Origin: Acidobacteriota bacterium
GTDB taxonomy: Bacteria > Acidobacteriota > Terriglobia > Terriglobales > Acidobacteriaceae
Assembly: GCA_013289685.1 (NCBI GenBank)
Contig: JABCZL010000001.1
Location: 437,838-501,837, forward strand
Direction of reading: 5' to 3'
DNA length: 64,000 nt
Under the pieces are notes generated by a model. It saw nothing but the letters and a program-made list of their open reading frames with translations, was not told the DNA's origin and did no database searches. Numbering within the stretch: position 1 is the stretch's first letter; every line of letters begins with the position of its first letter. Both the position numbers and the translations under genes were made by a program. Below are positions 7,956-28,302 of this stretch, in pieces.

Positions 7956-8278
7956 TCATCGTGGCTATGCCTTCCATTCTGTTTATTAAAGGCCACAACG
8001 TAAACGCAGCCTGTGGCATCCGCTCGCCCCTCTGAATACGGCGTGAAAAGGCCCAGAGGGTGCGGTGAAAAACACGACCCTTCATGATCCAAACTCCGGA
8101 TGCCCCATCCTGATCCTCGCAAGCCATTGAAAACCAAGGATCACCACGTAACTGGCCAGTTGGCAGTCGGCTTGCCTCGTATACGCTAGACCGCTTGCGT
8201 GCCAGGCTTCTAAGGCGTAACGGGACGTGGGACAGGGGGCGCTGGACGCGCTCCAAGAAGCACCGAAAAGGACAAGAA
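7956..8278. other. Intergenic region upstream of the TPR genes
   Basis: No gene is supported on either strand; the open frames here are short or overlap the TPR gene antisense. The only notable element is a sigma-54-like promoter match at 8161-8176, listed separately. Confidence 0.5.
8161..8176 (+). promoter_or_regulatory. Candidate sigma-54 (-24/-12) promoter
   Basis: TGGCAGTCGGCTTGCC has the invariant GG and GC with exactly ten bases between them, against the RpoN consensus TGGCAC-N5-TTGC. It is about 100 bases upstream of the first TPR gene. An NtrC-type activator is encoded at 26827, which makes sigma-54 control plausible in this genome. A single match of this length can occur by chance. 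Confidence 0.35.
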
Positions 8279-8938
8279 ATGAGCCTGAACGAAGTCCAAT
8301 CCGCCACAGTGCGCGGTTGGAAGCCCGCCCAGGTATACACGATGGCCGGCATCTGTGTGGTCATAGGTCTGGCCCTCGGATATCTGTTCCGCGGTTCGGC
8401 CTCCAATGCGGTTCCCGCTTCCCCAGTGGTGCAGGCCTCCGGCCAAGGCGCCACGACAGCGACGGCGCCGGCTCAAATGCCCAGCCTCGACCAGATGAAA
8501 CAAATGGCGGACAAGCAAGCCGCGCCCCTGCTGGCCAAACTGAAAAGCGATCCCAACAACTCTAATCTGCTCAATCAGATCGGCACAGTCTACAAAGCCA
8601 CCCATCAGTTCAAGCAAGCCATCGGCTTCTACCAGAAAGCCGTGCAGGCTGATCCCAGGAACCACCTGGCCCGCACCGACCTGGCTTCCTGTCTTTACTA
8701 CGAGGGTGACGTTGACGGTGCCCTGAAGCAATTGCAGCAGGCGCTCACCAACAATCCCAAGGACGCCGATTCCCTGTTCAATTTGGGCATGATTCGTTGG
8801 AAAGGCAAGGGAGACACAAATGGAGCTACCCAGGCCTGGACGCAGTTGCTGCAGTCGAACCCGCAGCTCGATCCGCCGAAGAAAACTCAGGTTGAGAAAT
8901 TGCTGGCCCAGGTTCAAGGACAGAAAAGCACGAACTAA
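8279..8938 (+). CDS. Membrane-anchored TPR protein
   Basis: A protein of 219 residues with one N-terminal membrane segment (YTMAGICVVIGLALGYLF, about residues 20-37), an Ala/Pro-rich linker and at least three tetratricopeptide repeats (about residues 75-215: NLLNQIGTVYKATHQFKQAIGFY, ARTDLASCLYYEGDVDGALKQL, DSLFNLGMIRWKGKGDTNGA). The TPRs should face the periplasm and act as a protein-interaction scaffold. The architecture recalls CcmG/CycH-type TPR proteins used in cytochrome c assembly, but I see no specific diagnostic motif. Start 8279 has AAAAGGACAAG upstream. The next gene is a close paralogue 24 bases downstream, so the two are probably co-transcribed. Confidence 0.75.
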   Translation: MSLNEVQSATVRGWKPAQVYTMAGICVVIGLALGYLFRGSASNAVPASPVVQASGQGATTATAPAQMPSLDQMKQMADKQAAPLLAKLKSDPNNSNLLNQIGTVYKATHQFKQAIGFYQKAVQADPRNHLARTDLASCLYYEGDVDGALKQLQQALTNNPKDADSLFNLGMIRWKGKGDTNGATQAWTQLLQSNPQLDPPKKTQVEKLLAQVQGQKSTN

Positions 8939-9905: not shown

Positions 9906-11795
9906 TCACTTCTTCAACAAACCACCACCCTGCGACGCAGTGACGCTACCGTTTGGGTTATGCGCAGTCCCATGACACGCCAGCACGCAGGTGTTTGTAT
10001 TCTGGTTGTAGGTGATGGGCAGGGCGCCATTCTGGCCAACCACGTTGACGTCAAAATTTACCAGCCGCTGCCCGCTCAGGTTGGGATCGATCCCTCCCAG
10101 CCCGTGGGCGGTGTGACATACCGAACAGCTGAAGCCGGCATTGATATGGCTCTGGTGCTGGTTGAAGCTGGCGTTCGTCATGATGTTGCTCAGGCTGTGG
10201 CACTTGCCGCAAAGCGCGTAGGGTCCGTTTATGCTGAGATCGGGCGCCCTGAACAGATTTGTGACCAGCTGACCAGGAGCGACCGCCTGGCTGAATTCGT
10301 AGCGGCGTTCCAGAATATGGGTCCACTTGGATCCATGTGGACCGTTCGGGCCGGGCCCTCCGAATTCTCGATTGTCATCGCTGTTGTGGCAGTCGGTGCA
10401 GAAAATCTGCGTTCCCATGGGACGCCCCGGTGTCATCCCGTCGAGATTCAACATGCTGCTCAACAGGCTCGGCTGCGGCAGCGAACTGCTGCTGACGTGG
10501 GTCACAGGATGGCTCGAGGTGGCAGTGACGCTGAATTGGGGAATGATGTTCAGCGGATCGCCTCCGGAAGCCGCCCGCGCTGGAAGGTAGCCAAAGACTG
10601 GACGAACCGCTTTCCCGGTGCCGCTGCCGTGACAGCGGAAGCAGTTTTCATATTGATTCACCACTGGGGCCAGCACCGTGATTCCGTTGGTGGCGCTGAT
10701 TCCCGCAGCATCCCTCTGGGAAAGGCGGACGAGGGGCGGCCCCGCGAACGTTGTCACCTGGGCTGACCCGTGACCGCTGTGGCAATCCACGCAAGTAGCG
10801 TGGCGGTTGTTGTTGAGCAGCACGCTCTCGGCAGCGTCATGAGCGTTGGTGGCCGTAGGGAATGGATGCCCCACTTTGGGAGAAGCGTACTCGGCGAAGA
10901 CGTTCGGCGCCGCCGGCGTTAAGTTGCTCCCGCCGTTGTGGCAGGCGATGCAATCCTGCTCGTTTTGTCCGCGGAGCAGGCGAGCTGGACCCTGAGCATT
11001 GTGGGGTGCGTGGCACCCGATGCACGCATCCTGGGCTACGGTCGTGTAACTCCCCACATTGGCCTGCGGAGAAAGTTTGTTCTGCACCAACGCGTGGGCG
11101 CTGATCGCCCAATCCGCAATGGGGTTCACCTTACCGCCAATTTGGCGGTTGGGATCATGGCAGGCCAGACACATCTGGCCGCTTGAACTGTCGCGGACCA
11201 GAAAACTCTGCGAGATCAGATCTTTTGCCTGCACGTGAGCGTTATGACAGGTCGTGCACTCGATGTTGCCGTTGACGAGGCGAATCGCCCCGGTTGGATC
11301 TCCCGTCTTGCCGGTGGCGGCGAGCGATGCAATGAGATCGATGTTGTCTTTCAAGGGCAAAGCCAGGGCGATCGGATGTGACGGCTGCAGGTTGCTGCCG
11401 AAGATGTCGGAGGTATTCATCGATCCGAACATCGCGACCTTGCCAAAGGCGGCGGTGGTTCCGGGAGCAACCGTCCCGTCGTGACACGAGAGGCACAGAG
11501 TGCTGTCAGCTCCCATCATGGGCTGCGTGGCTTTATTGACCTCTGTGGCGCTGCTGTACAACGTGTAGCTTTGCACCGACAGTTTCTGATTCCAGAGCGG
11601 GGTTCGACCACCGACTCCGCTATGCGGCTCGTGACAGTACATGCAGAAATCGGGCCGGGCGCCCGTGATGGGCGACTTGCTGCCCGGGCCCAAGTCGTGC
11701 ATCCCGATCACATCGCCGGAGACCTGAGCGAAAAGAGCTCCGCCGCTCAACAGAATCGTCGCGCACGCGGAGAGAACCCTGGCCCCTACAGACAT
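9906..11795 (-). CDS. Secreted 12-heme c-type cytochrome with an OmcE-like N-terminal module
   Basis: Exported multiheme cytochrome c of 629 residues. Signal peptide about residues 1-23 (ending ALFAQ). There are eleven CXXCH motifs plus one CX3CH (CVLACH, residues 603-608), giving up to twelve hemes. Residues 24-213 carry four CXXCH (51, 101, 180, 209) and exactly four further His (33, 58, 140, 187), in the same order as the tetraheme protein at 16324-17199. Shared local motifs are DV(I/L)GxH, CHxPH, CLSCHDG, SHP and CT(T/S)CHNxH. The remaining 400 residues add eight hemes. Its ATG overlaps the stop of the upstream NHL gene (TAATG), so translation is probably coupled. Likely role: periplasmic or surface electron carrier working with the barrel and propeller. 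Confidence 0.88.
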   Translation of the reverse strand: MSVGARVLSACATILLSGGALFAQVSGDVIGMHDLGPGSKSPITGARPDFCMYCHEPHSGVGGRTPLWNQKLSVQSYTLYSSATEVNKATQPMMGADSTLCLSCHDGTVAPGTTAAFGKVAMFGSMNTSDIFGSNLQPSHPIALALPLKDNIDLIASLAATGKTGDPTGAIRLVNGNIECTTCHNAHVQAKDLISQSFLVRDSSSGQMCLACHDPNRQIGGKVNPIADWAISAHALVQNKLSPQANVGSYTTVAQDACIGCHAPHNAQGPARLLRGQNEQDCIACHNGGSNLTPAAPNVFAEYASPKVGHPFPTATNAHDAAESVLLNNNRHATCVDCHSGHGSAQVTTFAGPPLVRLSQRDAAGISATNGITVLAPVVNQYENCFRCHGSGTGKAVRPVFGYLPARAASGGDPLNIIPQFSVTATSSHPVTHVSSSSLPQPSLLSSMLNLDGMTPGRPMGTQIFCTDCHNSDDNREFGGPGPNGPHGSKWTHILERRYEFSQAVAPGQLVTNLFRAPDLSINGPYALCGKCHSLSNIMTNASFNQHQSHINAGFSCSVCHTAHGLGGIDPNLSGQRLVNFDVNVVGQNGALPITYNQNTNTCVLACHGTAHNPNGSVTASQGGGLLKK

Positions 11796-12886
11796 TACAT
11801 TCCCGCTTTCGCCGGTTTCTTCAGACCGAAATAATGAAATACCTGAATGCGGCTGTTAAACGAGTCGACTACAAAAATCCGGTCATCGCGGTCGATGAAT
11901 ATGCCCGTCGGCAACTGAAACTCTCCCGGGCGCGTGCCCCGCCGCCCAAAGTAATAGAGCAGATCACCCTGGCGGTTGAACACCTGAACCACACCCCATG
12001 CGCCATCGACGATGTAGAGATCGTCTTCGGAGTCGACGCCAATCCCTTTCGGACGAAATAAGTCTCCGCTACTGTCGCCCAGCTTCCCGATTGCCGAGTG
12101 GAACGACCCGTCGCGGCCCAGTACCTGCACCCGCGAGTTCATCGCGTCCACCACAATCAATTCCTGGCCATCGAGCCGCAACTCGGTCGGCAGATTGAAC
12201 TCCAGATTGCCATCGCCATTCTTGCCGATCGTCTGCAAGATGCTGCCCTGCATATCCATCATGAAAATCTCGTCGCGTAAGGTGTCAGTCACGTAGATGC
12301 GCTGGGCGGCCGAGTCTACTGCGATTCCCGTCGGCCGTTTGAAATAACCTTCGCCACCTTTGATGCTGCCGATCGCCCGCTCATATTTTCCGCTGGCGCT
12401 GAAGACGAAGATCTTGCCGGTGTCTGAATCCGTGACGTAGATATTGTCCTGCGCATCGACCGCAACGCACTGCGGACTGAGCATCGCATCCTTGCCTTTT
12501 TCGCGGCGGTCGAGGAACTTGTATTTCTGCTGCGCGAAGTCGAAGATGTGCACGCCGCCGGCGCCCGGATCGCTCACGATGATGCGCCCGTGGGAATCCG
12601 TGGCAACGCTATAGGGCCGCACCAGGGTGTGGAATTCCGGTTCCCCCGCGATCACGTCCACCACACGGTTCCAAAATCCGCGCTTGGGTTTGACTTCCCG
12701 TTCGGAGCCGAAGCTGCGCTCGTAGATGAGCTTGCGGCCGCCTTCCAGTTCCAGATCCGGAGGCTTCGCCCCCTCCACTTTCGCGGTCTTCGCGGCCCAG
12801 CCCGGAATGGTGAGCAGCAGGGCGACCGCGACCGTACTCAGCTTGAGCGTGTACCGCATCCTGAGTTCTGTTTCTGGCGAGGGCAT
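11795..12886 (-). CDS. Secreted NHL-repeat beta-propeller protein (363 residues)
   Basis: Exported six-bladed beta-propeller. After a signal peptide (hydrophobic LSTVAVALLLTIPGWAA) comes a short conserved pre-domain (GFWNRVVDVIAGE), then NHL repeats from about residue 85 with the typical P-x-G-(I/V)-A-V-D, (I/L)YVTD-(S/T) and R-(I/V)-(Q/K)-V-F motifs. The same architecture is seen in the 458-residue NHL protein at 17729-19105. The first ATG, 12886, follows the barrel gene's stop by three bases, consistent with reinitiation; ATG 12859 would give a more standard signal peptide. It lies between a barrel and a cytochrome in one operon, so it is probably a partner of electron transfer or cytochrome export. 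No catalytic residues are recognisable. Confidence 0.82.
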   Translation of the reverse strand: MPSPETELRMRYTLKLSTVAVALLLTIPGWAAKTAKVEGAKPPDLELEGGRKLIYERSFGSEREVKPKRGFWNRVVDVIAGEPEFHTLVRPYSVATDSHGRIIVSDPGAGGVHIFDFAQQKYKFLDRREKGKDAMLSPQCVAVDAQDNIYVTDSDTGKIFVFSASGKYERAIGSIKGGEGYFKRPTGIAVDSAAQRIYVTDTLRDEIFMMDMQGSILQTIGKNGDGNLEFNLPTELRLDGQELIVVDAMNSRVQVLGRDGSFHSAIGKLGDSSGDLFRPKGIGVDSEDDLYIVDGAWGVVQVFNRQGDLLYYFGRRGTRPGEFQLPTGIFIDRDDRIFVVDSFNSRIQVFHYFGLKKPAKAGM

Positions 12887-12889
12887 GGT

Positions 12890-14737
12890 CTAGAAGAAAT
12901 TGAACCACCGAGATACGCCGATGAAAAACGCCGATACATGCTCCGGTGGAGTCCCTGACTGGCTGAACCCCTGCACCAGATTGCTGTATCCACCGGTCAG
13001 GTACATTTTACGAAATTGGTATTGGAAAAACGTATTGATCTGCTTCGTGTTGCTCTCGGAAGCGCTCCCAGCCAGGCTGCTGTTGCTCACGGCCTTGGCG
13101 TAGCTGGCACTCAGCGTGAGCCGGCGTACCGGGTTGCTGCTCAAGCCAAACCCGAAACTGTTGCCGCCAAAAAGAATCAGATCGGTGTTGCCCAGCACCG
13201 GCTCCGGCGTCGAAGTTACCACGATCCCCGCGCCGCTCTCGATTCCCGTTCCCGTCGATTTCGAGTATGAGCCGTTGAGGGTGGCCCACTTTGAGTAGTG
13301 GATTCCGGTATTGAAACTCTCGCTGCTGCTGGTGATTCCTGCCTGTGTCGTCAAGCCTGTCTTGCTGACGCTGGCGCCTGCGTTCCATCCGAACTCGCCC
13401 CAGGCTCGCCGGATCGTGCCCCCGTAGCTGTACATGGACGACATATATGCGATCAGCAGCGTCTCCACGTTCTGGGAATAACTAAAGTATCCCCCCGCCG
13501 TCCAGCCGTTGAATCTCTTGTTGTAATTGACCGACCCGCTGAAACCGAGGGCGTTGCCGCTGGAAGCGCTGCTCGTATTATCGGTCAACGAGAGAGCTGA
13601 GTTGAAGCTGCCGCCGAAGAGTACATGCCCGTAGGTGACCCCCCCGCCGTAGGAATCGGCGGAGTAATTCTTCCCCAGGAAAGATTGCTGCCGGTGGTCC
13701 GCCGTGGCCAACCCTTGCAGATTCGGCAAGATCGAGTAGCTGGCGTTGCCCAGCAGGTCGAATGCGTGCGACGACTGCCCTTGTTCGGGCGGCACCACCA
13801 CGCCCCCCGTCGCCGTGATCGCCTGATACAGCGTGCCCGTGAGGTTATCCGAATAGGTGGTGCTCACCGAATAGTGAAACTTCTGCGTGGGCTGAAAACT
13901 TGCCGTGCCCGTGACCGTATCGATGGTGCCGTGATAGCTGTTGCCGAGGTAGTTGGAATCCACATAGGAGCTGTTAAAGGCTCCGGAGAAGCCTCCATGC
14001 ATAGGAAGCTGGTGCCCGACGGAAAACCCATATCCCCTGTTGCTGGACGTTGCCGATTCGGCTTGCGTCGAGCCCTCGAGCAACTGGGGTATGTCGGCGT
14101 GCGAGCCGCCGTCGGTGAAATAGGCGCCCAGGTTAAAGCCCTGGAGCAGGTACGACGAGCGCAGACCGAAGGAATGCGAAGCGGTGCTTCCGTCGGCATT
14201 CGCTCCATAAATCGAGTACTGGTTGCTCCCCGTCTGGAAGCTCGCGGAGATGCTGGGCAGATTTGGCAGGGTTTCTGCCCAGTTGATGCCGAAGGTATCG
14301 CTGTTGCCACGCGTCGTATAGTTAGCCACGCCGGGGATCGCGAAGTTGCCCTCGCTGTTGTAGGCCTTGGAGTAGGTGACTGAGCCCGGGAAATGGCTGC
14401 CGCCGAAAATCGAGCTGTTGAAATTCACCCCGCTGGCGTTGGAAATGGATTGATAGGAGGAGTTGTCCCGCCCCTGGTTCATGAAAGGCGAAACCGTGTA
14501 GGAGATAAAATTGGGATTGTAGTAATAGCCGGAGAGGCTGGCCGTCCCACCGACAGAGAGGCTGTGATCGGAATTGATCAGGTTGCCGTAGTCGCCGGTA
14601 TATCCCGCGGAAATCGTGCCGCTCAGGTTCGAACTGGACTCTCCCAGCTTCAATTGCGCGCCGGCCGGCAACGCCAGCAGTAACGTCACGAGAAGCCCGC
14701 ACAGTGCCCAACCGGCTTTTCTCGGAGTTCCTTCCAC
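12890..14737 (-). CDS. Outer-membrane beta-barrel protein, candidate channel of the cytochrome locus
   Basis: A protein of 615 residues with a signal peptide (about 1-28, ending LPAGAQ) and then a continuous series of alternating, aromatic-rich strands rich in Ser, Gly, Tyr and Asn (for example SLSGYYYNPNFISYTVSPF, FGFGLSSNPVRRLTLSASYA). It ends in a strand with terminal Phe (SAFFIGVSRWFNFF), the usual signal for outer-membrane barrel insertion. I estimate 20 or more strands. No plug or TonB box is visible. Sequence does not identify a family, but its place directly before the propeller and 12-heme genes suggests a porin-like sheath or secretion channel for cytochromes, analogous to MtrB/PioB-type barrels or the channel proteins of nanowire loci. 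That role is inferred from context. Confidence 0.7.
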   Translation of the reverse strand: MEGTPRKAGWALCGLLVTLLLALPAGAQLKLGESSSNLSGTISAGYTGDYGNLINSDHSLSVGGTASLSGYYYNPNFISYTVSPFMNQGRDNSSYQSISNASGVNFNSSIFGGSHFPGSVTYSKAYNSEGNFAIPGVANYTTRGNSDTFGINWAETLPNLPSISASFQTGSNQYSIYGANADGSTASHSFGLRSSYLLQGFNLGAYFTDGGSHADIPQLLEGSTQAESATSSNRGYGFSVGHQLPMHGGFSGAFNSSYVDSNYLGNSYHGTIDTVTGTASFQPTQKFHYSVSTTYSDNLTGTLYQAITATGGVVVPPEQGQSSHAFDLLGNASYSILPNLQGLATADHRQQSFLGKNYSADSYGGGVTYGHVLFGGSFNSALSLTDNTSSASSGNALGFSGSVNYNKRFNGWTAGGYFSYSQNVETLLIAYMSSMYSYGGTIRRAWGEFGWNAGASVSKTGLTTQAGITSSSESFNTGIHYSKWATLNGSYSKSTGTGIESGAGIVVTSTPEPVLGNTDLILFGGNSFGFGLSSNPVRRLTLSASYAKAVSNSSLAGSASESNTKQINTFFQYQFRKMYLTGGYSNLVQGFSQSGTPPEHVSAFFIGVSRWFNFF

Positions 14738-15165
14738 CCTGCACCCACCTTCTTCTTCTGCCTACTACCCGGCGGCGCAGGCCAGGCAGCTGTAACTTCC
14801 TCGATAAAGACAGGTGCACGTACCGAACCAAATTAGAATGACGATAACTAACTGTTAATAAGTGGTTTAGAGCGATATCGCCGATCCGTGGAAGGCCCCC
14901 TCTGGGTCATATAACCCAGCAAATCCAGGGCTGATAAGGCTTTCGGCGCAACGGGGGAAAAGGGGTCAGGTCGAACCGTGGTGATGATGCTCCCGCCTCG
15001 AGGTCATCCCGACCGCAGCCGCTTTTCAGGCGGAGGGAGGGATCTCCCGCGCAAGGATGTCTGTAGGACGGAGGTCCCTCGCCCGTGGAGAAAACGCGGG
15101 CCTTCGAGATGACGCCGCAAGAGTTGAGGAAATTTCAGACCGACCACAGTAAGCGGGCTGGGGTG
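14738..15165. other. Intergenic gap between prolyl isomerase and barrel genes
   Basis: No gene seen. The part next to the barrel gene (about 14825-14880) is AT-rich compared with its surroundings and could hold the promoter of the barrel-propeller-cytochrome operon. The rest is occupied by the sequence GGGGTCAGGTCGAACCG near 14956 and by the inverted-end repeat 15003-15113. Confidence 0.5.
15003..15113. repeat. Inverted-end intergenic repeat
   Basis: The block starts GTCATCCCGA and ends TTCGAGATGAC, so the ends are imperfect inverted repeats (GTCATC(C/T)CGA). The interior contains GGAGGGATCTCCC-type palindromes. It resembles the element at 5821-6042 in its ends but not its interior. Non-coding. 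Confidence 0.55.
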
Positions 15166-16206
15166 TTACAGTTCTTCCACCTTGGCAGTTTTGCGCAGGC
15201 GCTTGTCGAGGGCCGCCCGCACTTCCTCGGTCTTGCGCTTTTCGAGTTCCTGACGCAGCGAATCCTTCACCTGATCGAAGGTTCGTTTCCCGGCAGGGAT
15301 GTGCTGGTTCAACCGGATGATGGTATAGACCTGCTCCACCTGGATGATGCCGGTGATCTCGCCCGGTTTGATGGCGAGCAGGGCCTGCACAGCCTGTGGA
15401 GCCAGCTTGGAACGCTCGACCGCCTTGTGGTCTCCCATCATGACCCGGTAATCGTCTTCGGAAATTTTCTCCGCCAGGATTCCGAACTGCTCGTAGTTCG
15501 TGGTCGCTTTGGCCTGCTGCAGGGCGTTCTCCGCGCGCTTTCGCGCTTCCGCCAGATTTGCCGCCGTGGGCTTGTCCGGGGGCAGGAAAGAGATGGTCTG
15601 AATCGCAAAAGCCTCGGGATATTCGAACCGGCCGGGATTCTTGTCGTAATAAGCCCGCATCTCGGCCACCGTCACCGTGGACCGGTTCTGCACCTCCGAC
15701 TGCAAAGCAGCGTCAATCACCAGGGAGCGGCGGATCTTTTCGTGCAGAGCTTTTTCGGAACCGTTGAACTCCGAATTCAGGAATTGCCGGTACTGGTCGG
15801 GACTCTCGAACTGGGCGCGGAAATCGCCTTCAGCTTTCTGCAGCTTGGCCGGCGGAACGGTCACGCCGCGGCGCACTGCATCCTGATACACCAGTTCCTC
15901 AAACTCGATCATCTTCAGCGCGCCCGCGCGCAGCTGGGGCAACAGCTCTTGCGGTATGTCGCCGCCGTGCTGCCGCGCGTAGGGGAACAAGCTGTACATC
16001 TCGCGCGTCAGGTCTCGATCCGTCAGCACCGTTCCATTGATGCGGGCGACGGGCTTGTCCGCCGGTTGCAGGCTCAGGTTGGCCGGTTGCGTGGCCGCGA
16101 CCGTCGTCTGCTTATGGGATGTGGCAAGCTGTTGCGCGCCTGCCACTGAACCTAGCGCCAGCAGGGCCAGGAGAATCTGGATCGAGTTTGTTAGCTGCCG
16201 TTTCAT
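15166..16206 (-). CDS. Periplasmic SurA/parvulin-type prolyl isomerase chaperone
   Basis: Exported folding factor of 346 residues. Signal peptide about 1-24 (ending GSVAGAQ). Residues about 50-190 form the SurA-like N-terminal chaperone region (VARINGTVLTDRDL, then an Arg/Glu-rich helical segment). About 200-320 correspond to a parvulin rotamase domain (YPEAFAIQTISFL, KPGEITGIIQVEQVYTIIRLNQHIPAG), followed by a charged helical tail. The parvulin part is divergent, so isomerase activity is likely but not certain. It is next to cytochrome genes rather than the usual LPS-transport neighbours, which suggests a dedicated chaperone for the cytochromes or the barrel. Prolyl-isomerase chaperones accompany nanowire cytochromes in Geobacter. 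Confidence 0.8.
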   Translation of the reverse strand: MKRQLTNSIQILLALLALGSVAGAQQLATSHKQTTVAATQPANLSLQPADKPVARINGTVLTDRDLTREMYSLFPYARQHGGDIPQELLPQLRAGALKMIEFEELVYQDAVRRGVTVPPAKLQKAEGDFRAQFESPDQYRQFLNSEFNGSEKALHEKIRRSLVIDAALQSEVQNRSTVTVAEMRAYYDKNPGRFEYPEAFAIQTISFLPPDKPTAANLAEARKRAENALQQAKATTNYEQFGILAEKISEDDYRVMMGDHKAVERSKLAPQAVQALLAIKPGEITGIIQVEQVYTIIRLNQHIPAGKRTFDQVKDSLRQELEKRKTEEVRAALDKRLRKTAKVEEL

Positions 16207-16267
16207 AGAACTTCCTCGTTCAGGAGTGCTCGTTCACAAACGTACTCAGTATCCGCCAGAAATTGGG

Positions 16268-16300
16268 TCAAAAAAAGGGGAGAGTTGCTGCTCTCTCCCC
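16268..16300 (-). terminator. Rho-independent terminator of the tetraheme cytochrome gene
   Basis: Read on the minus strand, GGGGAGAG and CTCTCCCC form an 8-bp stem (16277-16284 with 16293-16300) with an 8-base loop, followed by seven T. It lies 24 bases after the tetraheme stop codon and before the isomerase gene, so the cytochrome gene can be expressed as a single-gene transcript. Confidence 0.88.
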
Positions 16301-16323
16301 TCCGTGCTGCGATGCCGACAGAT

Positions 16324-17199
16324 TTAGAAGGTCGTCGGGATCGTGTAGCTTCCGTTGGACTCGTTCGCCTCTCCGCCATGGCACTGCCGGCAGAATTGCG
16401 CGGTCTGGTTCGAGCCCGCGGTTCCGCTGGCCGGGTTGTAGGGAGCGCGGATGAAGAACATGGTCGCATAGGTGCCAGCCGGCAGGCCGGACTTCTTGGC
16501 GGTCACGCTGACCACGTTCATCAAGTGCTGGTTGTGGCAACTCGTGCAAGTCACAACCGCGGTGTTGTTGTACGCGCTGAGGCTGACGAAGAAGCCATAG
16601 TTCTTTACGAATGCGCTGGAGTTCGGGCCGGTCATCGCGATCACGCCATTGGTCTCAACGCAATCCCAGCTATACTGGCCGCCGCAACTAACGGCGGCGT
16701 TCAGGCCCACCGGGTGGCTGGCGAGATACCCTTCAACGTTTGTCCCTTTGCCCAGCAGAGTCGGAATCGTGTTGAGGCTTCCATAGGTAGCAGGCAGCGT
16801 CTCATAGACCTGGTTCTTCATCATTGCGCCCTCAGCATAGTTGCCGTCATGGCAGCTGAGGCAGGTCAGAAGTCCGCCCACATCGGGCGTTCCAGCGGCC
16901 ATGCTGGCCGGCAGAACTTCCGTGAAGCCGGTGGATCCATCGGTGCTGCCGGTGATGATGGTCTTGCCAAACAGCGCGCCTACGTCTTGGCCCCAAAGAG
17001 CGACTGTGCCGCCCGTCAGGTCGCCGGACTTGTTGATGCCGTTGCCGCTGGCGCCGTTGTGCGGTGCGTGGCAGCCTGCGCAGCCACGGCCGTAGTTGAG
17101 GTGGGCGCCCAATACGTCAGATGTTGGCGCCTGGATCTGGGCTGACGCAAATGCCACCAGCCCCAGAACGAGCAGTACTGCTATGAATACCTTCCTCAT
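16324..17199 (-). CDS. Secreted tetraheme cytochrome, OmcE-like nanowire subunit candidate
   Basis: A small exported cytochrome: 291 residues with a clean signal peptide (MRKVFIAVLLVLGLVAFASAQ). It has four CXXCH motifs (Cys 40, 113, 218, 270) and, in the whole protein, exactly eight His: four in the motifs plus H33, H47, H162 and H225. Every heme can thus be bis-His ligated with none left over, as in polymerising OmcE-type cytochromes. A Cys pair (172, 180) could form a disulfide. The start at 17199 has a perfect AGGAGGT; an upstream in-frame ATG at 17385 would lack a signal peptide. It has its own terminator (16268) and a CRP-type site at 17525. The assignment to the nanowire class is inferred from the ligand pattern and context, not from measured similarity. 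Confidence 0.85.
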   Translation of the reverse strand: MRKVFIAVLLVLGLVAFASAQIQAPTSDVLGAHLNYGRGCAGCHAPHNGASGNGINKSGDLTGGTVALWGQDVGALFGKTIITGSTDGSTGFTEVLPASMAAGTPDVGGLLTCLSCHDGNYAEGAMMKNQVYETLPATYGSLNTIPTLLGKGTNVEGYLASHPVGLNAAVSCGGQYSWDCVETNGVIAMTGPNSSAFVKNYGFFVSLSAYNNTAVVTCTSCHNQHLMNVVSVTAKKSGLPAGTYATMFFIRAPYNPASGTAGSNQTAQFCRQCHGGEANESNGSYTIPTTF

Positions 17200-17206
17200 G
17201 GAAAAA

Positions 17207-17213
17207 ACCTCCT
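17207..17213 (-). promoter_or_regulatory. Perfect Shine-Dalgarno of the tetraheme cytochrome
   Basis: On the minus strand AGGAGGT lies seven bases before the ATG at 17199. It is among the strongest sites in the window, fixes the start, and points to high expression. Confidence 0.85.
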
Positions 17214-17524
17214 GTAAACTTGCAACTTTTATTGCGACTCTTATTACGAAATGATCATTTCTGAATGCGGGGAGCTGGATATGCCCGTTAAGCTGGTCGA
17301 CCGTGACTAAGTCTCTTCGGCTCATACACTCCATCTCCGCCTTTAGTAATGCACGCGGCAGACCGCGATGCGTCGGGCTGTTCAAAACCTGTCTGACACA
17401 TCTAACCTACTCATACGAAATCAGTTACAACATCCATCAGTCAGTATTGAAAACTGCGCAATTTACCCCACTGGGCTTTCTGGCCCACTGCTGCTGGTGA
17501 AATTCCTCACAGGAACTCAAATTA

Positions 17525-17540
17525 TGTGATTGGAATCACA
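17525..17540. promoter_or_regulatory. CRP/FNR-family operator, TGTGATTGGAATCACA
   Basis: An inverted repeat with 7-base arms (TGTGATT/AATCACA) around GG. It fits the CRP-type pattern TGTGA-N6-TCACA. It lies 326 bases upstream of the tetraheme start, inside the only region where that gene's promoter can be. Confidence 0.7.
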
Positions 17541-17684
17541 GGGTTTAGAGGGAAGCCGTTTGCACGGTCAGAGTCTTGGTTGGGATCGCATCCATCAGCC
17601 GCGGCCGAATCGGGAAGAGCACGAGTTTCACTCGTGCCGCTAAGCTGCCGAGAAACAGAACCGCGCTTTAGCGTCTGCGGTTCT

Positions 17685-17726
17685 CCTGGATATGTTCGCC
17701 TGGATACGTTCGCCTCGATACGTCAG
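17685..17726. repeat. 14-bp x3 degenerate tandem repeat after the NHL gene
   Basis: Three 14-bp units start at 17685, 17699 and 17713; the first two read CCTGGATATGTTCG and CCTGGATACGTTCG. The repeat abuts the stop codon of the minus-strand NHL gene. Confidence 0.7.
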
Positions 17727-17728
17727 TT

Positions 17729-19105
17729 CTACTTCGATGACGGATCCTTCGCCGACCCAGGGTCCTTCTGCGGGGCCGTGTCGGGTTTTTGAGCTGGAGG
17801 CTGGGTGGACGCCGGCGCCGGAGTTGCCGCCGCGGGCGTGGCTGGAGCTCCGGTCGCGGCCGCAGCTCTGCGGGCCTCGGCCTTTTGCTCGGCCTCGTCC
17901 TCGCGCCGCTTCTTTTCGGCCGCAGCCTCGGCGTCGGTGATGTAGCGGAACATCTGCATGCGGCCGGGATATTGTTCCGTGGTGAACACGCGATTCTGCT
18001 TGTCAATGGCTACGCCGACCAGAGCTTTGAACTGGCCGGGACCGTTGGCATGGGTATCGCCAATGTACGTGAGCAATTGGCCGTCGCGGTTGAACACCTG
18101 CAGACGGTCCTGGAATTGATCCGCAACCCAGATGTGGCCATCGCAATCGACCGCGATGCCCTTGGGCCGGAAGAGATATCCCGGGCCGTCGCCCGCCTTT
18201 CCGAAAGTGCTGATGAAGTTGCCGTCGGCGTCGAAGATTTCTACGCGGCTGTTCATAGTGTCGGTGACGTAGATGTTGCCGTCGGCGTCGACCGCAACAT
18301 TGGTCGCGCCGCCGAAATCTCCAGGCGTGGTGAGCGAGTGCTTCTTGCCCGGGGTGCCGATGCGGCGCAGCTCTTTCAAACTGTCAGCGTCGTAAACCAT
18401 GACCTGGTCCTGCTGCTCATCGACCACATATAAAAACCGATTCTCGTTGTCGATGGCTAGGCCCACCGGGTCGATCAGCCCCTCGGAGATCTGACCTTCA
18501 ATCTCGTGTTTGGGGTTGAAGACGAGCACTCGATGCAGGTGTCCGTCAGCGACGAAAAGGCGGTCGCCGTCGTCGATGGCAAGTCCGTTGATCAAATCAA
18601 AATGGGCATCGGTCCCGTTTTTGATGAGCGCAACGTCGTGGGTCTCAGTGTTGAAGATGAAGATGGCTCCGACTTTTTGGTCGGCGACATACACCAATCC
18701 TTTGGAGTCGATGGCGATGCCATAGGGTCCGATCAGCTGCCATGGAAATGTTTTGAGTTTGTCGGTGTTGTCTTCCTGCTTAGTGCCGGCCACGCGGTCC
18801 ATCCAGCTCTGCTTTTTCTTGGTGGTGGGAGCCGGAGTGTGATCGATCTTCATGCCCGCGTAGTAATTCAGCCACCGGACCCGAGCGATATTCGGAGGAT
18901 TGGGCCAAACCAGCTTGGAAGTGTCGATATCCAACTTGGGCGGCTCCGGAGGCGGGGCGGCTTCCGTTTTCTTCTTGTTTTTATCGCTGCCCTGCAATGC
19001 CATCGGCGAAGCCAGGGCCATGGCCAGCACAACGAAAAGCATTGCCACTATCCGGCCGCTGCGATGTGATTTAGCAAGATGTGATTTGGAAAAAAGCGCG
19101 CCCAT
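17729..19105 (-). CDS. Secreted NHL-repeat beta-propeller protein (458 residues)
   Basis: Second propeller of the locus. N-terminal signal or anchor (MLFVVLAMALASPMALQG, about residues 22-39), a Pro-rich linker, the pre-domain WMDRVAGTKQ that parallels WNRVVDVIAG of the shorter paralogue, then six NHL-type blades (about 120-385; for example PYGIAIDSKGLVYVAD, RPKGIAVDCDGHIWVADQ). A low-complexity tail rich in Ala, Pro, Glu and Lys follows (385-458), with a charged helix and then a Pro/Ala-rich region, perhaps a cell-wall or membrane spanner. It begins 16 bases after the 16-heme cytochrome gene, in the same operon. Its N-terminus contains a 15-bp duplication (19063-19092). Confidence 0.82.
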   Translation of the reverse strand: MGALFSKSHLAKSHRSGRIVAMLFVVLAMALASPMALQGSDKNKKKTEAAPPPEPPKLDIDTSKLVWPNPPNIARVRWLNYYAGMKIDHTPAPTTKKKQSWMDRVAGTKQEDNTDKLKTFPWQLIGPYGIAIDSKGLVYVADQKVGAIFIFNTETHDVALIKNGTDAHFDLINGLAIDDGDRLFVADGHLHRVLVFNPKHEIEGQISEGLIDPVGLAIDNENRFLYVVDEQQDQVMVYDADSLKELRRIGTPGKKHSLTTPGDFGGATNVAVDADGNIYVTDTMNSRVEIFDADGNFISTFGKAGDGPGYLFRPKGIAVDCDGHIWVADQFQDRLQVFNRDGQLLTYIGDTHANGPGQFKALVGVAIDKQNRVFTTEQYPGRMQMFRYITDAEAAAEKKRREDEAEQKAEARRAAAATGAPATPAAATPAPASTQPPAQKPDTAPQKDPGSAKDPSSK

Positions 19106-19121
19106 AACTGATCTCCTGTTT

Positions 19122-20633
19122 CTAGTTTCCTTCCGTCGTGTTCAGCATGTTGATTCGGTTCTTGTGGCAGTTATCGCAGAATGCCATGTTATTTTGCTGA
19201 TCTTTCACCAGCAATCCGGCTTGAGCCGAAGCGTGCGGCTGATGACAACTCAGACAAGAGAGGTGAGTCTTGACCTGGTTGATATTCGCCGGATCCATCA
19301 CGTCTCCCACGGGATGCTTGGCCACGGGATGTCCCAACCCGTACCGTAAGGGGAGGATCGGCACCTGATTCTTCTTGTAATAGTCCTCCGGCAGTTTCAC
19401 CTGGCCGTTAAATATGGTAAGCAGGTGTTCGGCCGCCAGCTTTTGCGGTACCGCGTCCGGGCCGTGACATTCCAGGCAGAGTGCATTCCCCTTCACCCGC
19501 AGCAGATGGTCATTGTCGCCGCCGTGCGGCGTGTGGCAAGTGGCGCAGCCTTGACTGAACGCGGGCTGATGGTGGACCGGTTTCTTGGCCAGATCGGAAA
19601 TATCACTATGGCAACTCAGGCAGATCTCCACAGCGTTGGTCTTGGGCAGTCCAGGTTGGGCGCTCGCATGCGGGCTGTGGCAGTCGGTGCAATCACCGGC
19701 CGCGCCCGGATGTTGCACTTTGGCGGTCGCGATCAGTTTGGCTTTATCGTCGTGGCAGGTGACGCACAAGGACTTGACGTCAGTTTGGGTCAAAACCACC
19801 TTGCCGTCTTTCGCTGCAGCGTGGCAAATGTCACATTGCTTGTCGGCAAAAGGCGGATGCGTAAATTTGGCCATGAGCTTCGGCGCAGCGGACTGGTGCG
19901 GGTCGTGACAGCTTAGGCAATCCGCTTTTTCAAAAGGCTGGTTCTGATGTGCCTTTTGCAGCTCGGGGGTTTTCGGATCATGACAGTCGATGCACAACGC
20001 CGGGCTTGCTTTGGTCAAATGGAAATCAAACTCAGCCTTTCCGATCTGACCTGTCTTGTGCGTTATGTGGCAGGTATCGCAGCCCATATCGAGCGCGGGG
20101 TGACGGCTGCCATTTTCCGGCACATTCGTCCCCATCTCGTGGCACGTGAGGCAGAGGTTGTCCTTCTTGTCGCCCGACGTGGCTTTCAGCAGCTGATTCT
20201 TGTTGTCGGACGTATGCGGATCATGACAGGTCAGGCAGTCGCGAACCGCCGGCGGATGGACCCGGCCCTGAATCTTTGTGGCATCCTTATTGCTGTGGCA
20301 ACTCAGGCACACTTTGTACGGCACGGGGCTCGTCAGCGTGACGTGGGTTACTTCTTTGTTGGTTCGAATCTGGTGACAGCTCAAACACCCCATCGCGATA
20401 GCGGAGTGAACTGCCTTGCCCTTGCTTTTGTCCTCGTGGCATTCCAAACATTTTGCCGAGTCCGTCTTTGGATCGAGCGGCACGGGGTGTGTCTTGGCCA
20501 GCGCGGGCATCACCGCAACTACGATCATGAATGTCCCGAGCAGAAAGAGACGCAGAGAGAGTCGCAGAAAGAAACGCGGACGCGTCTGTTCGATCGGCTT
20601 GCTTATCGTTGGCTGGCTTGTCAATGCACGCAT
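19122..20633 (-). CDS. Secreted multiheme cytochrome c, 16 CXXCH motifs
   Basis: Large exported cytochrome of about 503 residues from the preferred start. An N-terminal hydrophobic segment (LFLLGTFMIVVAVMPALA) acts as signal peptide or anchor. I count sixteen CXXCH motifs, many in CXXCHxPH form typical of doubled-CXXCH families, spread evenly from CLECHED near the N-terminus to CDNCH near the C-terminus. Fourteen or more extra His can serve as distal ligands. Likely a periplasmic or outer-surface electron conduit feeding the smaller cytochromes. The frame is open upstream to 20759, but only the ATG at 20633 gives a plausible signal peptide. A CRP-type palindrome lies about 250 bases upstream, in the divergent region shared with the ResB gene. 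Confidence 0.87.
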   Translation of the reverse strand: MRALTSQPTISKPIEQTRPRFFLRLSLRLFLLGTFMIVVAVMPALAKTHPVPLDPKTDSAKCLECHEDKSKGKAVHSAIAMGCLSCHQIRTNKEVTHVTLTSPVPYKVCLSCHSNKDATKIQGRVHPPAVRDCLTCHDPHTSDNKNQLLKATSGDKKDNLCLTCHEMGTNVPENGSRHPALDMGCDTCHITHKTGQIGKAEFDFHLTKASPALCIDCHDPKTPELQKAHQNQPFEKADCLSCHDPHQSAAPKLMAKFTHPPFADKQCDICHAAAKDGKVVLTQTDVKSLCVTCHDDKAKLIATAKVQHPGAAGDCTDCHSPHASAQPGLPKTNAVEICLSCHSDISDLAKKPVHHQPAFSQGCATCHTPHGGDNDHLLRVKGNALCLECHGPDAVPQKLAAEHLLTIFNGQVKLPEDYYKKNQVPILPLRYGLGHPVAKHPVGDVMDPANINQVKTHLSCLSCHQPHASAQAGLLVKDQQNNMAFCDNCHKNRINMLNTTEGN

Positions 20634-21088
20634 GAGGATCCCGGGAACATCCCTAACCACATGAGCACGAACCTCGCCTTCATCGTGGGAACTGCCGCTC
20701 TGGCGCCAGTTGAGTTGTAAACTATTGCAACATAGTACGTTGTGACGTTGCTGCCCCATTGCCTGAATGCTTGAAAACCATTTTCAGTTCCGGGAATGGG
20801 CTTTCTCCCACAGTCGAAGCGGTGAAATAGCGCATCCTTTCCCCAGAATCATTGCACCGCTAACGCCGTACTCCAGCCTTTTTTGGTGATTTCAATCACA
20901 TGGTTTCTGCCCGCTGGGTGAAATCGCAGCACGCCCCAGGAAAGATGAGTGTTATCACCCCAAGCGTGAGCGGTCCATGGGCCGGCTTGACCTCCGAACA
21001 TATTGATTTCACGACACTTCAACAGTTGACTCCCGGTTGGTGCCGAACGTGCATTACCCCAGGCGAATACTGGGGAGACGCAAAACTC
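20634..21088. other. Divergent regulatory region between cytochrome and ResB units
   Basis: No gene is supported. The open frame preceding ResB has no signal or family match and is best read as leader. The region contains the CRP-type palindrome at 20885-20900 and must hold the promoters of both divergent operons. Confidence 0.55.
20885..20900. promoter_or_regulatory. CRP/FNR-family operator in the divergent region
   Basis: GGTGATTTCAATCACA contains the perfect 14-bp palindrome GTGATT-TC-AATCAC and differs from TGTGA-N6-TCACA only at the first base. Its core matches the site at 38964 exactly. It could serve both the 16-heme cytochrome (minus) and ResB (plus) operons. Confidence 0.65.
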
Positions 21089-22654
21089 ATGACTTCACCA
21101 TTTCGCTCCTCGTGGCACACGACCTGGCAGACGCTGAGTTCCATTAAGACAGGTGTAGTCCTCATCATATCGGTCGTTATCTTCTCGGCGGCGGGCACGA
21201 TCATCCTGCAGCGTCCCATGACCGATCCCGACGACATGACGCGCGCGTATTCGCCTGCCATGCTGCGCTTTCTCGACGTCACCGGCCTGACCGACATCTT
21301 CCATACGCGTTGGTTTATCGCCCTGATGATTCTGGTCAGCCTCAGCATCGTCGCCGCGTCCGTGCAGCGCTTCCCCAATGCCTGGCGGTACTTTGCGCGT
21401 CCTTATAAGAGTCCCGATGAAAGCTTTCGCAAGGTTCTGCCGACGCAGGCCCAGATTCCGCTTGCCAATAATGACAATGACGAAGAGCAGGGATTGAGCG
21501 CCGCGGAACGCGCCTTCCGCCACATGGGACTGAAAGCCGAACGCATCGTCCGCACCGACAGCTTCTCTTTGTTCTCCGAGCGCAATCGCATTTCCGAGAT
21601 GGCGGTCTACATCGTGCATGCCAGCCTGCTGCTGATTTTCCTGGGCTTCATTGTGGATTCAGTTTACGGATGGCGCGCATTCCTGGTGCTGAGTCCCGGA
21701 ACAGCGAGCAATCAGGTTGAAACCAAAGACGGCTCCAAGCGAACCATCCCATTCTCCATCCGCTGCGATGGCACGGGAGAAGAAACCTACGCCGACGGTT
21801 CACCCAAGCGCTGGTGGTCGAAACTGGCGGTGGTCGACGGGGGACGCGAGGTGTCGCGCAAAGAGATCGTGGTCAACGACCCGCTGGTGTATCACGGACT
21901 ACGCTTCTACCAGGCGACGTACGGCCGCACTGGCAAGCTCGATCAGTTGATTCTCAACGCGACGCCGGCGAACGGCAAAGCTACGCCTCAGGAAATCTCC
22001 CTGGCGATGAGCCAGACCGTGGCTCTCGACGTCGACACCAGCGTGCAACTGGCGGAGTTTATCCCGGACTTCGTGGTCCAGGACGGCCGAGTCTACGCCC
22101 GCAGCAATGACGTGACGAACCCCGCGGTCCACCTGATCGTCACCTCGAAGAAAGCCAAAGGCAGCGTGAGCGTGAATGTCTGGCTGCCGCAAATGCCTGG
22201 CATTGACGAGAACGCTTCCTCCCCCTACACCTTCGATCCCAAGGACTTGAAGACCGGCCTTTACACCGGACTGCAGGTCTCGCACGAACCCGGCCAGTGG
22301 GCGGTGTGGGCCGGCGTCGTGCTCATGGGCATCGGCCTGACTTTTGTTTTCTACGTGGTTCACATGCGCTTCTGGGTGGTTCCCGTCGTCGATGCCCGCG
22401 GCCGCACCGCGCTCTGGATCGGCGGCACCGCGAACCGCAATCGCGATGCATTTGAACTTAAATTCAAAAATGTAGTGGAGCAGATTCAGAAGGAATTGAA
22501 ACGCGAACTCGCGGCCTCTGTCGAGGCGCCCGCAACGATCTCAGGAACAACGATCTCAGGAACAACGATCTCGAGAACAACGATCTCAGGCACAACGATC
22601 GCCGGTTCGGTGAGTCCGGCAACGGAGGAAGTGTATGGCACGCGCAAGAGCTGA
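21089..22654 (+). CDS. resB: ResB-like cytochrome c maturation protein
   Basis: Membrane component of the system II heme-export and attachment complex, which works with CcsA to deliver heme to apocytochromes outside the inner membrane. Two N-terminal membrane segments (TGVVLIISVVIFSAAGTIIL; WFIALMILVSLSIVAASV), a third after a loop (MAVYIVHASLLLIFLGFIVDSVYGW), a large periplasmic domain (about 190-400) and a C-terminal segment (WAVWAGVVLMGIGLTFVFYVVH) match ResB. Start at ATG 21089, with GGGGAGA upstream; the frame is open further upstream without family sequence. The C-terminus carries a Thr/Ile/Ser repeat encoded by a 15-bp tandem repeat. The gene overlaps the CcsA start by 20 bases. Confidence 0.88.
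   Translation: MTSPFRSSWHTTWQTLSSIKTGVVLIISVVIFSAAGTIILQRPMTDPDDMTRAYSPAMLRFLDVTGLTDIFHTRWFIALMILVSLSIVAASVQRFPNAWRYFARPYKSPDESFRKVLPTQAQIPLANNDNDEEQGLSAAERAFRHMGLKAERIVRTDSFSLFSERNRISEMAVYIVHASLLLIFLGFIVDSVYGWRAFLVLSPGTASNQVETKDGSKRTIPFSIRCDGTGEETYADGSPKRWWSKLAVVDGGREVSRKEIVVNDPLVYHGLRFYQATYGRTGKLDQLILNATPANGKATPQEISLAMSQTVALDVDTSVQLAEFIPDFVVQDGRVYARSNDVTNPAVHLIVTSKKAKGSVSVNVWLPQMPGIDENASSPYTFDPKDLKTGLYTGLQVSHEPGQWAVWAGVVLMGIGLTFVFYVVHMRFWVVPVVDARGRTALWIGGTANRNRDAFELKFKNVVEQIQKELKRELAASVEAPATISGTTISGTTISRTTISGTTIAGSVSPATEEVYGTRKS
22534..22608 (+). repeat. 15-bp x5 tandem repeat in the end of resB
   Basis: Five units of AACGATCTCAGGAAC, the last ones diverged, start at 22534, 22549, 22564, 22579 and 22594. 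They encode a repeated T-I-S-G/R-T pentapeptide in the cytoplasmic tail of ResB. The length preserves the reading frame, so copy number can vary harmlessly. Confidence 0.85.

Positions 22655-26826: not shown

Positions 26827-28302
<1,476 letters not shown>

Follow-up and report, generated by a model that had tools for sequence, protein, structure and literature searches.

An acidobacterial gene cluster combines a predicted Mtr-like conduit with cytochromes of the OmcE family

A conserved gene set, found in a soil acidobacterium and in many related bacteria, looks suited to export electrons via a pore in the outer membrane to a putative wire of heme proteins related to OmcE, the nanowire protein of Geobacter. 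The explanation we favour, and hold with middling confidence, is an electron-transfer locus in which an Mtr-like outer-membrane conduit is joined to a cytochrome of the OmcE family, the latter most likely a filament subunit. The parts are of known kinds; their combination is new. The locus lies within a window of 64,000 nucleotides, the whole stretch of DNA that was analysed (papers are cited by PMC number, with "in part" where an excerpt served as the source).

Gene content and conservation

The sequence-only reading of this DNA listed a 16-CXXCH cytochrome, two propellers, a tetraheme cytochrome, a prolyl isomerase, an outer-membrane barrel and a 12-heme cytochrome on one strand, with divergent ResB/CcsA heme-attachment genes. 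All are present as it described them. The first seven are encoded on the minus strand, with frame coordinates running from high to low in transcription order, and the two heme-attachment genes on the plus strand. Pfam backs the cytochromes, the propellers and the isomerase. The features of the locus are:

9906-11795, minus strand: 12-heme cytochrome (11 CXXCH and one CX3CH; Pfam PF09699 and PF22113 over cut-off)
11148-11723, minus strand: OmcE-like domain of the 12-heme cytochrome, putatively a filament base or cap
11795-12886, minus strand: NHL-repeat propeller 1, with a leader peptide (Pfam NHL 85.9 bits; 26 of 26 full-flank loci)
12890-14737, minus strand: predicted outer-membrane barrel (AF2 pLDDT 79.2, pTM 0.64)
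15166-16206, minus strand: PpiC/SurA-type prolyl isomerase (Pfam Rotamase_2 58.8 bits, and SurA_N_3)
16270-16300, minus strand: terminator-like hairpin, 8 pairs and seven T, just 3' of the tetraheme gene
16324-17196, minus strand: OmcE-family tetraheme cytochrome of the long form, secreted, with eight His ligands, candidate filament subunit
17729-19105, minus strand: NHL-repeat propeller 2 (Pfam NHL 89.7 bits; 25 of 26 full-flank loci)
19122-20633, minus strand: 16-heme cytochrome of MtrA-like sequence (16 CXXCH; frame open to 20759), candidate trans-outer-membrane wire
20900-22654, plus strand: ResB, c-type heme attachment (Pfam ResB 261.4 bits; 18 of 26 full-flank loci)
22635-24032, plus strand: CcsA/CcsB, c-type heme attachment (NCBIfam CcsB 251.4 bits, cut-off 187.6; 18 of 26 full-flank loci)

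Synteny was counted only in those loci of relatives that have full flanks (n = 26). The block running tetraheme, isomerase, barrel, propeller and 12-heme cytochrome has one order in all 26 of them, so that gene set and order are kept in other Terriglobia, a check that the earlier reading had proposed. A comparison across 200 genomes of this class puts the tetraheme in 23, the barrel in 29 and both in 22 (Fisher p 3e-22); the remaining tetraheme genome has part of a barrel where its contig ends. The unit is kept together far beyond chance.

Most of the cluster is also present in the cultured Occallatibacter savannae AB23 (locus L051), where the 16-heme gene is located elsewhere and has one in-frame TGA. 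The record titles of several relatives name bog, fen and palsa as their origin.

The tetraheme cytochrome

The listed frame of the tetraheme gene starts at 17385, and the signal peptide begins at the ATG at 17196. Short relatives that occupy the same slot of the locus match Geobacter sulfurreducens OmcE (7TFS), with E 1.7e-14 for a single sequence and E 5.5e-43 for their profile. The long form, to which the window protein belongs, exceeds the short one by about 60-80 residues, and a profile comparison ties the two together at E 4.7e-21 across the N-terminal half, in an alignment that covers three of the four heme sites only. A single-sequence search with the window tetraheme gave no OmcE match. 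The profile of the long family weakly matches 9YUQ, with E 3.7e-4 over the full sequence and 0.34 over its best stretch, and reaches E 0.079 against 7TFS.

OmcE and 9YUQ arrange their four CXXCH and their four distal His in one order, which recurs in 76 of 76 non-redundant tetraheme rows. The eight His are likewise invariant in all 76; as the rows were chosen for four CXXCH and the first distal His, it is H26, H141 and H204 that represent unselected ligands. We conclude from these comparisons that the tetrahemes and OmcE are homologues and that the window protein, tied in via the profiles, belongs to a diverged OmcE subfamily. Its mature part is longer than OmcE, with 270 aligned residues compared to 232 in the 7TFS chain; the protein of locus L146 has 186. 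The OmcE-like ligand order noticed earlier is matched by membership of the OmcE sequence family. The further suggestion that the locus is an independent version of a nanowire assembly system is not supported, since a subunit that is a homologue of OmcE, and not an analogue, did not evolve independently. Nor is the pairing with a propeller special to this class: in eight of eight loci from outside it, an NHL-propeller gene neighbours the OmcE-like tetraheme gene.

Homology to OmcE is not proof of polymerisation. The AF2 model of the tetraheme, made without hemes, has a mean pLDDT of 57.8 and no Foldseek match at E <=0.001; because this heme-free model is poor and matched nothing, filament formation is something that we infer. 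In OmcE and OmcS, one heme ligand is shared across subunits (PMC9473688, in part).

A second OmcE-like domain

In the 12-heme cytochrome, an N-terminal OmcE-like tetraheme domain is fused to about eight further hemes. A profile of this domain built from 40 sequences matches 7TFS at E 2.1e-30 and 9YUQ at E 6.5e-25, and hhalign aligns the domain to the long tetrahemes (profile A1) at E 2.7e-20 over 175 columns and to profile A2 at E 2e-40. The full-length 12-heme protein as query gave no OmcE match at E 0.01. Judged by its profile, the N-terminal domain is an OmcE homologue with the OmcE ligand order.

The locus thus differs from OmcE itself in having a second OmcE domain, fused into another protein. 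This domain, which opens the 12-heme cytochrome, is one of the new points here and is a candidate filament base. We tentatively propose, with somewhat less than even confidence, that the 12-heme cytochrome is an encoded filament base whose OmcE-like domain and eight-heme connector would couple an MtrAB-like conduit to a nanowire of the OmcE type.

A possible Mtr-like pair

The best PDB sequence match of the 16-heme cytochrome is MtrA (6r2q_A, E 1.7e-17, the next best being 0.0085; the query began at 20672). Against the NCBIfam DmsE family it scores 167.9 bits, below the cut-off of 192.2. The barrel sequence has no Pfam or NCBIfam family and no PDB sequence match, and is thus not placed in the MtrB family by sequence. 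Its AF2 model contains 28 predicted strands of >=10 residues. The best Foldseek match of this model is MtrB (6r2q_B, E 1.6e-9, TM 0.47, rmsd 13.5) among 241 matches at E <=0.001, and is non-specific in that many large barrels match too. The same PDB entry, 6R2Q, was reached independently by the 16-heme cytochrome through sequence and by the barrel through fold, suggesting that the pair is an electron conduit.

The likeness to MtrCAB (6R2Q) extends to the 12-heme cytochrome, placed outside in our proposal, which has an MtrC/MtrF-type Pfam match over cut-off, although the 16-heme cytochrome scores there too. The two systems differ in heme number (16 here, 10 there) and in barrel strands (28 predicted here, 26 there; PMC7198977, in part). 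They differ also in the barrel, which lacks a sequence family match here, and in the OmcE-type domains and propellers that are added.

It is conceivable that the same hardware works inward, taking up electrons for example from iron(II) oxidation. Some species use MtrA homologues to oxidise iron, and flow in both directions is therefore conceivable (PMC3669403, in part); the direction is not readable from sequence. Several relatives come, by their records, from wetland settings where reduction of iron or humics is plausible, which leans against uptake with nothing specific either way. We consider inward flow very unlikely.

Possible excess production of the tetraheme

Of 92 unique regions downstream of long-form tetraheme genes, 53 contain a terminator-like hairpin. 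After the other genes of the set the share is 3-12 %, with the isomerase gene at 4 of 75. Only one of the eight short-form clusters has a terminator signal. This pattern suggests that the tetraheme is made in excess.

The suggested excess bears on an alternative in which a porin-cytochrome conduit acts with non-polymeric relays and the tetraheme, secreted as a monomer or a short oligomer, serves as an electron shuttle. The MtrA/MtrB-like pair would suit such a shuttle, and the additional residues of the long form could block stacking. The hairpin pattern, the retention of all eight OmcE ligands and the recurrence of an OmcE domain in the 12-heme cytochrome argue against it, and we regard relays of this kind as unlikely, if with some substance.

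Comparison with the osc cluster

The osc cluster of Geobacter counts an isomerase and a propeller among its parts. The roles of the osc (omcS-companion) proteins have been described (PMC13194489, in part). The two loci have in common a filament cytochrome, an isomerase, channel-like proteins and a propeller. The present locus differs in having an OmcE-type tetraheme instead of the hexaheme OmcS, an MtrA-like 16-heme cytochrome, two propellers and an isomerase that is not universal. The isomerase occurs in 26 of 26 full-flank long-form loci and is absent from six of the eight short-form clusters (present in two). The earlier view of a prolyl isomerase as companion of the nanowire cytochrome therefore stands for the long form and fails for most short-form clusters, whose lack of it rules out the isomerase as a constant part.

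One reading of the likeness is an osc-like assembly and secretion machine, in which the tetraheme would leave through the barrel as its secretion channel, be chaperoned by the isomerase and be matured with the help of a propeller, with the other cytochromes secondary. Several observations agree with it: the part list, which resembles that of the osc cluster; the size of MtrB, close to that of secretion barrels of 24-26 strands (PMC7198977, in part); and the NHL-propeller gene, which adjoins the OmcE-like tetraheme gene in all eight loci examined outside the class. We find it quite unlikely, given the short-form clusters without isomerase and given that the barrel and the 16-heme cytochrome both match the MtrAB pair best. 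With MtrB as the nearest solved fold of the barrel and MtrA as the nearest solved sequence of the 16-heme cytochrome, a secretion channel is no better an explanation than a porin-cytochrome conduit, and may be a poorer one.

Proposed mechanism and implications

The electron-transfer reading of the locus is backed by the OmcE-family tetraheme and the conserved gene set. In the mechanism we propose, ResB and CcsA would attach the hemes, and the propellers, with the isomerase where present, may aid folding or docking of the cytochromes. The 16-heme cytochrome would sit partly inside the barrel and carry electrons across the outer membrane. The 12-heme cytochrome would lie outside, its OmcE-like domain taking the place of the first 'subunit', with secreted tetraheme stacking onto it. 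Neighbouring tetrahemes would share one His ligand, as in OmcE, and the hairpin terminator would allow their production in excess. In wet soil, the system likely serves to respire iron oxides or humics.

A literature search, with subscription papers mostly outside its scope, found no title on OmcE-type cytochromes in Terriglobia. The homology described here would extend these cytochromes to a class that is common in peat and soil. A 2025 review lists as unsolved how cytochrome nanowires are anchored in the membrane, how they are secreted and at which points electrons enter and leave them (PMC12307469, in part). The conserved cluster offers a specific, testable model in which the wire is MtrA-like, the barrel MtrB-like and the base an OmcE-domain fusion that carries the filament subunit. 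If the 12-heme cytochrome is indeed the filament base, it would reveal the anchoring site of a cytochrome nanowire and the place of electron entry, and one cluster would encode the entire path from periplasm to wire.

Gene organization of the locus

Between about 20633 and 9906 this acidobacterial genome carries seven minus-strand genes, in the order 16-heme cytochrome, NHL propeller, tetraheme cytochrome, PpiC/SurA isomerase, barrel, NHL propeller and 12-heme cytochrome, and the ResB and CcsA/B genes are divergent from them. Each of the seven products starts with a hydrophobic leader, as judged by eye from the translations. The part list given by the sequence-only reading, which had proposed a candidate nanowire or electron-export locus, is correct.

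17729-19105, minus strand, NHL propeller (propeller-2)
16324-17196, minus strand, tetraheme cytochrome
11795-12886, minus strand, NHL propeller (propeller-1)

The intergenic gaps are, in gene order, 16, 532, 117, 428, 3 and -1 bases, so the 16-heme gene and its propeller form one tightly coupled group and barrel, propeller and 12-heme gene another, with the tetraheme gene more isolated. A TPR protein gene (8195-8938) adjoins the 12-heme gene and weakly resembles a TPR domain of cytochrome c biogenesis, CcmH/CycH (40.1 bits, below the cut-off of 42). A sensor histidine kinase gene directly after ccsA (24010-25323) and, beyond it, a sigma-54 response regulator gene (26827-28302) are possible regulators of the locus.

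The tetraheme cytochrome as a relative of OmcE

All 94 aligned tetraheme rows with four CXXCH, some being the same gene fetched twice, share exactly eight conserved His columns, as do 76/76 rows after near-duplicate removal. As a single query the window tetraheme gave no OmcE match. With its family profile, the whole-sequence E-value against 9YUQ was 3.7e-4, that of the best single stretch 0.34, and OmcE scored 0.079. In related genomes a shorter protein occupies the tetraheme slot (L146, L145 and L133, and by ligand order L186-L190). The L146 short form alone matches OmcE of Geobacter sulfurreducens (7TFS) at 1.7e-14 and 9YUQ at 2.4e-14; a profile of ten short forms reaches 5.5e-43 and 5.8e-39, respectively, and OmcS at 1.1e-5 over about 40 positions. 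Profile-profile comparison joins the long, window-type family to the short one over the first three heme sites (99.4% probability, E 4.7e-21). The ligand order of the tetraheme rows, H, CXXCH-x2-H, CXXCH, HP, CXXCH-x2-H, CXXCH, is the one that OmcE shows when aligned with the short forms. Judged from these comparisons, the tetraheme is a relative of OmcE with OmcE's ligand order, and the earlier proposal of an independent version of a Geobacter-like assembly system is not borne out. Heme ligation is shared between OmcE subunits (excerpts of PMC9473688; PMC12954529; PMC12307469).

Outside the class the tetraheme search gave nine matches, and the eight loci fetched all have an NHL gene as same-strand neighbour of the OmcE-like gene, seven times upstream of it and in L139 downstream. 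In other Acidobacteriota, multiheme cytochromes of very large size are encoded close to OmcE-like genes, one open frame having 42 CXXCH (L135:14358-17597) and another 23 CXXCH (L133:297-2270).

IMG/VR contigs (L149, L150, L151, L152, also L153-L155) hold a lone OmcE-like tetraheme gene, near 10001 in L149-L151 and at 7730-8212 in L152; a profile of five of these proteins matches 7TFS at 3.8e-45. PHROGs matches include a DnaB-like helicase and primase (L150), an RNA ligase (L151), and ribonucleotide reductase, thymidylate synthase and exonuclease (L152), so at least some of these contigs, which could be misassigned, look like large phages carrying a nanowire-type cytochrome. No such phage-borne cytochrome was a title subject among the best-ranked literature matches.

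Conservation of the cluster

Scanning genome contigs for the tetraheme gave 68 loci, 26 with full flanks, mostly from sources named as Acidobacteriaceae or Terriglobia MAGs plus one Occallatibacter isolate. Tetraheme, isomerase, barrel, propeller and 12-heme genes keep one order and strand in 26/26 full-flank loci; the gene order, which the sequence-only reading had marked for comparison, is therefore conserved in other Terriglobia. The 16-heme gene and its propeller share that strand in 25/26, with 20 cases upstream and 5 downstream, and are missing from L051; ResB/CcsA genes lie on the opposite strand in 18/26. In the isolate, Occallatibacter savannae AB23 (L051 / L194), the 16-heme gene is outside the 20.9 kb around the tetraheme, and the best match elsewhere in the genome carries one in-frame TGA.

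In a 200-genome draw of the class, a single-sequence search found the tetraheme in 23 genomes and a profile search the barrel in 29, with both in 22 (Fisher p 3e-22, the genomes being related and not independent). The one tetraheme genome with no detected barrel, G192, has a barrel fragment at a contig end (L193). None of the seven barrel-only genomes is a clear case of a cluster without a tetraheme: in G140 and G184 the barrel is at a contig edge, and the other five (G143, G005, G022, G090 and G044, the last with a partial barrel match only) hold the cluster, their tetraheme being of the short form and having escaped the single-sequence search. A 7-heme protein replaces the 16-heme one in four of these five. 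The isomerase gene does not always belong to the cluster, being absent from 6/8 short-form clusters. Tetraheme copies without the rest of the cluster occur in L088, in L092, where the copy is split over frames, and, as a lone extra copy, at L147:9117-10031 in G103, a genome with three copies in total.

About 24 bases past the tetraheme stop, the window has a terminator-like hairpin of eight pairs and then a run of seven T. Applying a single rule within 160 bases of the stop to all genes, we found such hairpins downstream of 53/92 unique tetraheme genes, compared to 4/75 for isomerase, 4/55 for barrel, 3/63 for propeller-1, 7/88 for propeller-2, 7/61 for 16-heme, 7/58 for 12-heme, 3/24 for resB, 2/26 for ccsA and 56/2040 shuffled tetraheme downstreams. 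Short-form clusters have it in only 1/8. A tetraheme subunit needed in excess would explain this pattern, as might other reasons.

A candidate conduit and filament base

The closest known systems are the OmcE filament, the MtrCAB complex (6R2Q) and the Geobacter osc (omcS-companion) cluster. The best PDB sequence match of the 16-heme cytochrome is 6r2q_A (E 1.7e-17; next best 0.0085), which we take to be MtrA, the chain being annotated as a synthase in an entry titled as the Mtr complex. The barrel gave no match in family and PDB sequence searches. Its structure model, built from 47 sequences (pLDDT 79.2, pTM 0.64), has 28 strands of at least 10 residues by our count, and in Foldseek it ranks 6r2q_B, MtrB, first (E 1.6e-9, TM 0.47, rmsd 13.5). 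This likeness is suggestive and not specific, because further barrels, siderophore-type ones among them, match from 8.5e-8 onward and 241 matches have E <=0.001. MtrB has 26 strands and a size like that of LptD and FimD (excerpt of PMC7198977).

One alternative is a secretion machine like that of the osc cluster, whose original paper is reportedly Shen et al. 2025. OscH is assigned to folding, OscE-G to secretion and OscD to morphology (excerpt of PMC13194489). Two independent searches gave two partners of one Mtr complex for the 16-heme protein and barrel, and we therefore consider a conduit more probable for this pair than a pure secretion channel.

We take the OmcE domain of the 12-heme protein as the most informative new point. 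The strict OmcE ligand-order pattern stands at the N-terminus in 54/64 homologous frames, which include a few duplicates and a few where it starts at a leader His. Nine of the other ten deviate at a single position, the one following the first His, and the tenth (L024) is truncated where its locus ends. A profile of 40 such domains matches 7TFS at 2.1e-30, 9YUQ at 6.5e-25, the short tetrahemes at 2e-40 and, across 175 columns, the window tetraheme family at 2.7e-20. The domains were chosen by the pattern, so that their ligand conservation is not independent evidence, and the 7TFS match is. Searching with the entire 12-heme sequence alone gave no OmcE match at E 0.01. Offering an OmcE-like face and carrying eight further hemes, the 12-heme protein is a natural candidate base or cap for a filament.

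From the observed homology, gene order and terminator pattern we infer the contacts, the filament and the direction of flow as follows. Inner-membrane donors encoded outside the locus would reduce the 16-heme wire, which would pass through the barrel; the 12-heme protein would receive the electrons outside, and its OmcE-like domain would initiate the tetraheme filament. Alternatively, the conduit may feed non-polymeric relays, or the same parts may serve electron uptake.

The spread of OmcE-type nanowires is reportedly the subject of Baquero et al. 2023, which may mention Terriglobia; among the literature matches listed, no title concerned cytochromes of the OmcE type from Terriglobia. An excerpt of an Arctic-peat study proposes, on the basis of decaheme genes, that Acidobacteria reduce iron, and reports that OmcE, OmcS and OmcZ genes were not found in its metagenomes (PMC3669403). 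Taken together, the locus is real and conserved, and it probably serves electron transfer by means of a subunit of the OmcE family. A single cluster that unites a candidate conduit, a candidate fusion base and the subunit is a new combination that merits experiment.
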